This document shows positions 49,444-50,803 of a stretch of DNA of 64,000 bases, one piece after another. The stretch is taken from assembly GCF_947486615.1 (NCBI RefSeq), contig NZ_CANKUD010000006.1, positions 124,001 through 188,000 of the forward strand. The letters run 5' to 3'. Position 1 is the first letter of the stretch. The number at the start of each line of letters is the position of its first letter. Under the pieces are notes generated by a model. It was given only the letters and a program-made list of their open reading frames with translations, was not told where the DNA came from and made no database searches. The stretch is from an uncultured Modestobacter sp. (GTDB taxonomy: Bacteria; Actinomycetota; Actinomycetes; Mycobacteriales; Geodermatophilaceae). A program made the translations under genes and the position numbers.

Positions 49444-50100
49444 TCAGCCGCCGCGGAGGCGTTCGCCGATGGCGGGGTCGTCGGACCAGTCGCGGTAGGG
49501 GATCCGGCGGATCTCCGTGATGTCACCGATCGTGGACCACTCGTTGCCGCCCAGCCGGGCCAGCGGGCGCAGCTCCTCGATCCGCGGCCGGCCGTCCCGG
49601 ACGGCGGCCGCGTGGACGGCGATGTGCACCACCCGCCCGAAGACGACGGTGCTGTCGCCGAGGGACACCGTGCCGTGCAGCACGCACTCGATGGACACCG
49701 GTGACTCCGCCACGCGGGGCACGCCGACCACCTCGCTGGGCTCCAGCCGCACCCCGGCGTGCTTGGCCTCGTCCTGGTCGGGCGGGAAGTCGGTGGCGGT
49801 GGCGTTGACCTGCTCGAACAACGCCTCAGGGGTCAGGCTGATGGTGAACTCGCGGGTCTGCTCGACGTTGGTCAGCGAGTCCTTGCGGCCCACGCTGGTG
49901 AACTGGACGACGGGCGGGTCGACGCAGGCCACCGTGTAGAAGGAGTGCGGAGCGAGGTTGCGCACGCCCTCGGCCGAGCGGGTGCACACCCAGGCGATCG
50001 GCCGGGGGACGACAACTGAGTTCAGCACCCGGTAGAAGGCGCCGGGTGCCATCTCGGCGGGGTCGAAGTGCACCCGCGGTGGGCTGCTCTGCTCGGTCAC
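49444..50100 (-). CDS. Flavin reductase-like FMN-binding protein
   Basis: A 218-residue split-barrel FMN-binding protein of the flavin reductase-like family. The typical N-terminal pattern is FYRVLNSVVVPRPIAWVCTR, then GVRNLAPHSFYTVACVDPP (FMN phosphate/isoalloxazine site) and KDSLTNVEQTREFTISL. These proteins reduce free flavin or act as FMN oxidoreductases; the partner is unknown. The GTG start is 309 nt from the UAG-redoxin gene's stop-proximal end region on the same strand, with only 31 nt of spacer between the two genes, so it may be read from the redoxin promoter. Confidence 0.87.
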   Translation of the reverse strand: MTEQSSPPRVHFDPAEMAPGAFYRVLNSVVVPRPIAWVCTRSAEGVRNLAPHSFYTVACVDPPVVQFTSVGRKDSLTNVEQTREFTISLTPEALFEQVNATATDFPPDQDEAKHAGVRLEPSEVVGVPRVAESPVSIECVLHGTVSLGDSTVVFGRVVHIAVHAAAVRDGRPRIEELRPLARLGGNEWSTIGDITEIRRIPYRDWSDDPAIGERLRGG

Positions 50101-50131: not shown

Positions 50132-50791
50132 TCAGCTCGGCTCCGGCGGGTGCTCGGCCCGCCACTCGTCGAAGGCGGCGAGGAACGACTCGGCCATCCG
50201 CTGCTCGGTGACCAGCTGGTCGCGGTCGGTGTCGTCGACCATGCGCTCGCTCAGCGCCTTCGTGTTGAAGCGGATGGCCCGGAAGTAGGGGATGAACGAC
50301 CGCGGCTGGAACGCCCGCTCCGAAGGGCTCGGGGTGAGGCCGACCGGTGTCCAGGGCTCGGGCGGTGGCAGCGCGGGCAGCCCGAGGCCCTCGACCGCGG
50401 CGAGCACCGGCTCGTCGTCGGTGCGGTCGGTGAAGTCCCGGGACAGCTCCCGGAACACCTCGCGACCGTCCGGGGCCACGACCACCACGATCGGCCGGAA
50501 GATCGAGGCCGCCGTGTCCCAGGCGTCCAGCGGCTGGGCCAGCTGGGCGCCGTCCGGGTCGCTGGTCCAGCGGAAGGGCAGGTGCCAGGTGGCGTTCATG
50601 CCGAGCTGGACCTCGGGCGGGTCGACCGAGGCGAGCACCACCTCGGCGCCGGCGGCGGTGAGCCGGGGCAGGGACCGGGCCAGGCGGACCGCCTGGGCGC
50701 AGCAGTAGGGCTACCAGTCGCCGCGCAGGCCGACCAGCACGAGGGCGGCGCGTTCGGAGGAGCGCAGGGTGAGCAGCTCGCGAGGGTCCAT
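50132..50791 (-). CDS. Redoxin/peroxiredoxin-like protein with in-frame TAG, candidate UAG-encoded selenoprotein
   Basis: Read through a TAG at 50711-50713, this frame gives a 219-residue thioredoxin-fold redoxin. ATG 50791 is 6 nt from TAGCCT (leaderless). Residues 1-26 end LVLVGLRGDW, codon 27 is TAG, and PYCCAQAVRLARSLPRL follows, the AhpC/TSA-like pattern in which residue 27 is the redox Cys of W-C-P-Y-C. With selenocysteine the site is U27-x-x-C30. About 190 intact codons follow (VVLASVDPPEV, then HLPFRWTSDPDGAQL), with no other stop or frameshift. A hairpin fitting a bacterial SECIS starts 14 nt after the codon. UAG-directed selenocysteine insertion has been reported in Geodermatophilus and Blastococcus. 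The alternative is a pseudogene or a sequencing error. Confidence 0.85.
50680..50696 (-). other. Candidate SECIS hairpin after the UAG codon
   Basis: On the minus-strand RNA, CCAGGCG and CGCCUGG form a 7-bp stem with apical GUC; opening the last pair gives a GGUCC-type loop. The loop G and U are 22-23 nt after the UAG, against 20-21 nt for the GU pair of the E. coli fdhF SECIS. The stem is fully within the coding sequence, as bacterial SECIS elements are. Confidence 0.7.
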
Positions 50792-50797
50792 CGGCCC

Positions 50798-50803
50798 AGG
50801 CTA
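50798..50803 (-). promoter_or_regulatory. -10 element TAGCCT, leaderless start at 50791
   Basis: TAGCCT with 6 nt to the ATG of the UAG-redoxin gene. Its TAG doubles as the stop codon of the upstream glycosyltransferase gene. Confidence 0.6.

Follow-up and report, generated by a model that had tools for sequence, protein, structure and literature searches.

A predicted UAG-encoded selenocysteine in a peroxiredoxin-like redoxin of Modestobacter, its distribution in the Geodermatophilaceae and a UGA counterpart

The window analysed here is a stretch of 64,000 nucleotides from an uncultured Modestobacter sp. of the family Geodermatophilaceae (RefSeq assembly GCF_947486615.1, contig NZ_CANKUD010000006.1, positions 124,001 to 188,000). 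On its reverse strand lies a gene that very probably encodes a peroxiredoxin (Prx)-like thiol:disulfide oxidoreductase, a redoxin whose first active-site residue is selenocysteine (Sec), encoded by UAG. The in-frame TAG is with high probability a Sec codon of a rare kind that is already known, to which we add observations on its distribution and on codon exchange.

Reading frame, active site and start

The redoxin frame (Table 1) runs from an ATG to a TGA and has one internal stop, the TAG at residue 27, which is followed by 192 open codons. When TAG is read as Cys, the translation matches the Pfam family AhpC-TSA (PF00578) over residues 9–109 (1.9e-11; 44.4 bits against a cut-off of 26) and also the family Redoxin (7.6e-07), and it continues into a helical C-terminal extension at about residues 163–213. 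The open reading frame (ORF) found mechanically 3′ of the TAG, 50132–50641, gave no match in the Pfam search. An initial annotation, made from the letters of the window, had proposed a single TAG at residue 27 with about 190 clean codons after it, placed where the first redox Cys is expected; the frame bears out the count, and the column proves to be that of the first Cys of RGDWCPYC in homologues. The two cysteines that follow, Cys30 and Cys31, are unchanged in all six aligned orthologues, and Cys30 is unchanged in 25 of 25 sequences once distant homologues are included.

The same annotation had predicted a leaderless promoter and start. The −10-like element TAGCCT ends 6 nt 5′ of the ATG. 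Of 30 orthologues, 25 have a TANNNT element that ends 6–7 nt before their start and the remaining five have CANNCT, which supports a conserved leaderless start with this element as its candidate promoter. The first three bases of TAGCCT are at the same time the stop codon of the glycosyltransferase-like frame upstream (50801–50803, reverse strand); UAG is thus the stop of that frame and the proposed Sec codon of the redoxin, less than 100 bases apart.

Table 1. Features of the window and of the genome that contains it; positions without a contig prefix are those of the window
Feature	Position	Strand	Basis or remark
Redoxin gene (Prx-like UxxC selenoprotein, predicted)	50132..50791	-	219 residues, Sec at 27; translation, Pfam
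Predicted Sec codon TAG (residue 27)	50711..50713	-	aligns with first Cys of RGDWCPYC
Codons of Cys30 and Cys31 (U27-P-Y-C30-C31)	50699..50704	-	orthologue alignment
Bacterial selenocysteine insertion sequence, upper hairpin CCAGGC-GGUCC-GCCUGG (candidate)	50680..50696	-	constraints match; lowest synonymous diversity around hairpin
-10-like element TAGCCT, leaderless start (candidate)	50798..50803	-	ends 6 nt before ATG
Flavin reductase-like domain protein, adjoining downstream gene	49444..50100	-	PF01613, 1.1e-26; neighbour, no partner claim
tRNA-Sec, anticodon CUA	C8:168236-168327		67.7 bits
SelD	C8:167246-168154		strand opposite to tRNA-Sec; divergent, about 80 nt apart
SelA	about C8:176.1-177.4 kb		above curated cut-off
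SelB	starts C8:177405		272.9 bits, cut-off 242.25

Conservation of the TAG codon

The gene was sought in a family set of 112 genomes of Geodermatophilaceae, which includes the genome of the window (G000), with presence defined at E 1e-20. It was found in 30 of these, and all 30 orthologues, from several genera, have TAG at the column of residue 27. TAG is the sole stop in 28 of them, the other two having a one-base deletion after it; further stops scattered through homologues, which the initial annotation had named as a refuting result, are present in none of the 30. A second set of 117 relatives, again with G000, gave the redoxin in 18, of which 17 have TAG and one has TGA. The TGA orthologue comes from a genome (G090) of another family of the same order. 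The 17 named loci, in Modestobacter, Blastococcus and Geodermatophilus, all have TAG, and among 394 genomes drawn from the class only two carried the redoxin at the same threshold, both of them Geodermatophilaceae.

For distant homologues, 80 of 117 confirmed loci were kept. Cys occupies the column in 62 of the 63 loci L150–L212 (L170 being unmatched), partly by construction, since homologues were fetched in part with the pattern RGD[WF]CP[YF]C. The alignment of homologues that the initial annotation had called for thus gives TAG in the family, TGA in G090 and Cys at greater distance.

Selection on either side of the TAG

Codon diversity and the ratio of nonsynonymous (pN) to synonymous (pS) differences were taken from 28 genes, the two deletion genes, the TGA gene and four duplicate records being left out; the pairwise values are not independent of one another. 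In the proposed frame the 25 codons 5′ of the TAG have a pN/pS of 0.36 and the part 3′ of the hairpin one of 0.40. When the upstream part is read one or two bases off, pS falls to 0.13 or 0.03 and pN is 0.19 or 0.24, an inverted pattern, and because the pattern reverses in both shifted frames the proposed frame is taken to be the coding one. We conclude that the part 5′ of the TAG is real coding sequence under purifying selection in frame.

The 11 codons that follow the TAG behave differently, pS dropping to 0.091 and pN to 0. Codon diversity there is 0.077 compared with 0.26 elsewhere (p 0.0015, 20,000 draws), and this is the lowest of 115 windows of codons, tied with one that overlaps it. 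Such a drop in pS is what is expected of a selenocysteine insertion sequence (SECIS) under constraint, whereas even strong constraint on the protein alone would not lower pS.

The SECIS-like hairpin and other UAG genes

The hairpin within this stretch starts 14 nt after the TAG. Published constraints on the bacterial SECIS (bSECIS), as given in PMC13188914, are a loop of 3–9 nt, an upper stem of 4–16 bp, a G in the first two loop positions, a distance of 16–37 nt from the codon and a minimum free energy of at most −7.5 kcal/mol. The redoxin hairpin agrees with all of these, having a GGUCC loop 20 nt after the TAG, a stem of 6 bp and an energy of −12.6 kcal/mol (50699–50668). Every redoxin gene that lacks the deletion, 29 in all and the TGA gene among them, has the loop GGUCC, and in eight TAG orthologues all 17 bases of the hairpin agree with those of the TGA orthologue.

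A related element occurs in formate dehydrogenase (FDH)-like genes. G000 has two of these, L218 (C5:79975-80715) and L219 (C1:381534-382280), each with one TAG, at a known Sec site, directly before a His codon, and a UAG FDH match is present in 99 of the 112 family genomes. In 31 FDH-like loci, a subset of all FDH matches that includes L218 and L219, the hairpin was located by position and read base by base. All 31 have the loop GGUCU after the TAG. A compensatory change, C-G to G-C, distinguishes the stems of L218 and L219, and across the loci the pair 17-29 is C-G in 7, U-A in 4 and G-U in 20, while the pair 20-26 is C-G in 30 and G-C in 1; one locus has a broken outer pair. Covariation is thus confined to the FDH-like hairpins, the redoxin stem being nearly invariant and drawing its support from synonymous constraint. 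The GGUC of the loop, common to the redoxin and FDH-like genes, suggests that one SelB may recognise the hairpins of both; the SECIS loop of Escherichia coli fdhF also contains GGUC. A UGSC-motif selenoprotein gave no match in G000, in a search whose controls gave no match either.

Decoding machinery and proposed mechanism

The genome of the window (4.70 Mb in 36 contigs, 99.98% complete) contains the full set of genes for which the initial annotation had proposed a search, namely selA, selB, selD and a tRNA-Sec with a CUA anticodon, the three Sel proteins each scoring above the curated cut-off in profile searches. The sole other match above the tRNA-Sec cut-off in G000 is a tRNA-Ser according to a better-scoring family. 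Taken with the TAG in every family orthologue and the hairpin, these genes support the U-x-x-C redoxin that the initial annotation had put forward.

From the sequence we infer that Sec is incorporated at residue 27 and acts in a catalytic cycle, and the parts assigned here to SelA, SelB and SelD would be those of established knowledge. SelD would make selenophosphate, with which SelA would convert Ser-tRNA-Sec to Sec-tRNA-Sec, and SelB, bound to the hairpin just 3′ of the UAG, would bring the CUA tRNA-Sec to the ribosome. Where no such hairpin follows, a UAG should still terminate translation, and this would hold for the one that ends the frame directly upstream. Sec27 is most likely the nucleophile and would be linked to Cys30 by a Se-S bond, on the pattern of CxxC redoxins, before a cellular thiol donor presumably reduces it.

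Anticodons and codon exchange

Anticodon calling, which required four paired stem bases, covered 99 tRNA-Sec loci from 98 genomes and gave 58 CTA, 40 TCA and one TGA, the last (in G113) apparently a tRNA-Ser. All 30 family genomes with a TAG redoxin have a tRNA-Sec(CUA), and the tRNA-Sec of G090, which has the TGA redoxin, has a UCA anticodon. In seven genomes of the same family (G027, G029, G031, G037, G038, G045 and G050) UCA is the only tRNA-Sec anticodon; these genomes gave neither a redoxin nor a UAG FDH match, several of them being incomplete assemblies, and it therefore seems that the change of code took place inside the Geodermatophilaceae. One genome, G036, has two tRNA-Sec genes, L036 (C17:1173-1263) and L114 (C11:15836-15927), UCA being the anticodon of one (81.8 bits) and CUA that of the other (65.3 bits). 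A frame beside the UCA gene, near a contig end, has what we take to be a transposase-like look, and this copy may be mobile or a contamination.

It seems rather likely that the redoxin is an obligate selenoprotein in this branch, in which UGA and UAG replaced one another at the same site, the tRNA-Sec anticodon changing with them and the SECIS hairpin remaining as it was. Both the direction of this exchange, with UGA as the older codon, and the lack of Cys orthologues are inferred from a single TGA gene and from the genomes searched.

Alternative explanations

Several observations weigh against a UAG-encoded selenoprotein and its SECIS. The redoxin is absent at the threshold from 82 of the 112 family genomes, and L218 and L219 match TIGR01591 in pieces, below its cut-off. 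The folding energy of the hairpin is ordinary for its GC-rich composition (z 0.46 and −0.05) and is uninformative as evidence for a SECIS; only one pair of the redoxin stem varies, G-C in 20 genes and G-U in 9, so that double-sided covariation is lacking. In addition, the same single C is absent just 5′ of the hairpin, about 15 nt after the TAG, in L032 (G003) and L033/L148 (G039), which belong to different genera, and this deletion would break the frame. Both sides of these two genes nevertheless look intact, their mean downstream pN/pS being 0.40 and 0.38 compared with 0.33–0.47 in the other 28, values in keeping with normal purifying selection, and the deletion is read most simply as slippage that has recurred at the hairpin or as a mistake of assembly there.

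These two deletions, together with public gene models and a mechanical ORF that start downstream of the TAG, are what could be expected if the TAG were an ordinary nonsense mutation, leaving a pseudogene or a shortened protein made from a later start. We regard this as highly improbable, because the same codon stands in every one of the 30 orthologues across genera, purifying selection acts on both sides of it and the leaderless start is conserved, and because a shortened product would lose the active site, the downstream piece having no Pfam match. A pseudogene and a sequencing error were both rejected on the constancy of the TAG and the pN/pS of its two flanks. There is an equally slender chance that the UAG is read through as some residue other than Sec, be it a near-cognate amino acid or pyrrolysine (Pyl), for which UAG codes in other organisms. 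ARAGORN labels the CUA tRNA as tRNA-Pyl; the same tRNA, however, scores 67.7 bits as a tRNA-Sec in a genome that has SelA, SelB and SelD. Distant homologues have Cys at the column, and the orthologue with TGA there is from a genome with a UCA tRNA-Sec. Pyrrolysine itself was rejected on the search for its synthetase PylS in G000, the best score being 21.1 bits against a cut-off of 178.15.

A question of a different kind is whether the selenoprotein is instead a peroxidase in which the peroxidatic residue is Cys30, supported or resolved by Sec27, a reading that we think rather unlikely. The typical peroxiredoxin motif is PxxxTxxC. The window redoxin departs from it, since the aligned residues are Arg23, Sec27 and Cys30, only the Cys being kept and the Prx Pro and Thr positions being taken by Arg23 and Sec27. 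In the fold comparison, which covered residues 1–139, the column of Sec27 is that of the first Cys of CxxC in matches to ResA and protein disulfide isomerase, and the motif UxxC, with Sec as the predicted residue, stands at this CxxC position. In PMC13188914, moreover, the selenium peroxiredoxin listed has TxxU, and UxxC with PF00578 is assigned to the Prx-like thiol:disulfide oxidoreductases.

Relation to known systems

UAG recoding for Sec with a tRNA-Sec(CUA) in the Geodermatophilaceae was reportedly described by Mukai et al. in 2016. The paper of Santesmasses et al. 2017 (PMC5330540) records a tRNA-Sec(CUA) in three genomes of the family, credits the FDH and UGSC-motif selenoproteins to Mukai et al. 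2016, and itself adds a Sec-TAG AhpC with a predicted bSECIS in Blastococcus saxobsidens DD2. The initial annotation had pointed to reports of UAG-encoded Sec in Geodermatophilus and Blastococcus, and the idea itself is no novelty: the Sec-UAG kind has been known in the family since 2016 and the Sec-TAG AhpC in DD2 since 2017. On the account given in PMC5330540, the system of Mukai et al. shares with the present one the tRNA-Sec(CUA) and an FDH with matching codon, the redoxin being that paper's own addition.

The DD2 gene, as described there, is like that of the window in its family, in the tRNA-Sec(CUA) and in being a Sec-TAG AhpC-type redoxin followed by a bSECIS; the report concerns one gene in one genome, whereas the window gene is an orthologue in another species. 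The window redoxin is 75% identical to L230 (G122) and 72% identical to the DD2 database protein P0069, which from residue 13 is identical to L230, a locus with the TAG. It is very likely, on the basis that G122 is DD2 with its single match, that the DD2 Sec-TAG AhpC is the orthologue of the window gene. With the class of Prx-like thiol:disulfide oxidoreductase selenoproteins, as set out in PMC9312934 and PMC13188914, the window redoxin has PF00578 and UxxC in common, and it differs in its Sec codon, UAG and not UGA, and in the helical C-terminal extension. Its N-terminus is short compared with most distant homologues.

Within the literature searched, what appears to be new is the family-wide distribution, the UGA/UAG pair with one hairpin and the identical deletion in two genomes; no other paper on how widely the redoxin occurs or on its UGA form was recognised in a literature search that had most subscription papers outside its reach.

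Gene models and neighbourhood

Ordinary gene calling, as the initial annotation had foreseen, truncates the protein: among the 120 database matches listed none covers more than 84% of the redoxin, and 12 of the 14 inspected start 3′ of the TAG. The other two are P0003, the redoxin protein of Modestobacter sp. DSM 44400 (G003), which starts just 5′ of the TAG in a shifted frame, and P0120, which spans the column with Glu. The matches P0090–P0117, at 50–65% identity, have at most 82% of the protein covered, and the six inspected start after the Sec column, a pattern that suggests further unannotated Sec orthologues outside the family.

Glycosyltransferase, redoxin and flavin reductase genes lie side by side in 5 of the 17 named loci, all of them Modestobacter. 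Clustering of ORFs in 11 of these 17 loci gave, among the 14 largest clusters, no neighbour in more than 5 of the 11 except redoxin-antisense and low-complexity frames, and because no neighbour recurs beyond this we claim no partner or reductant for the redoxin.

Implications

A class of UAG selenoprotein reported from one genome proves to be present in 30 of the 112 family genomes searched, about a quarter of them, where the redoxin joins the formate dehydrogenases and UGSC-motif proteins known earlier as UAG selenoproteins. For annotators of Modestobacter, Blastococcus and Geodermatophilus, the practical consequence is that a UAG with such a hairpin should be read as Sec. If the proposed exchange of codons is true, the UAG redoxins and their UGA counterpart would amount to a comparison made by nature between orthologues, from which it would follow that hairpin and anticodon, and not the choice of stop codon, determine bacterial Sec insertion. 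Paired with a UAG orthologue, the UGA gene of the other family, whose hairpin is the same, offers a natural system in which to test what stop-codon identity and SECIS each contribute.
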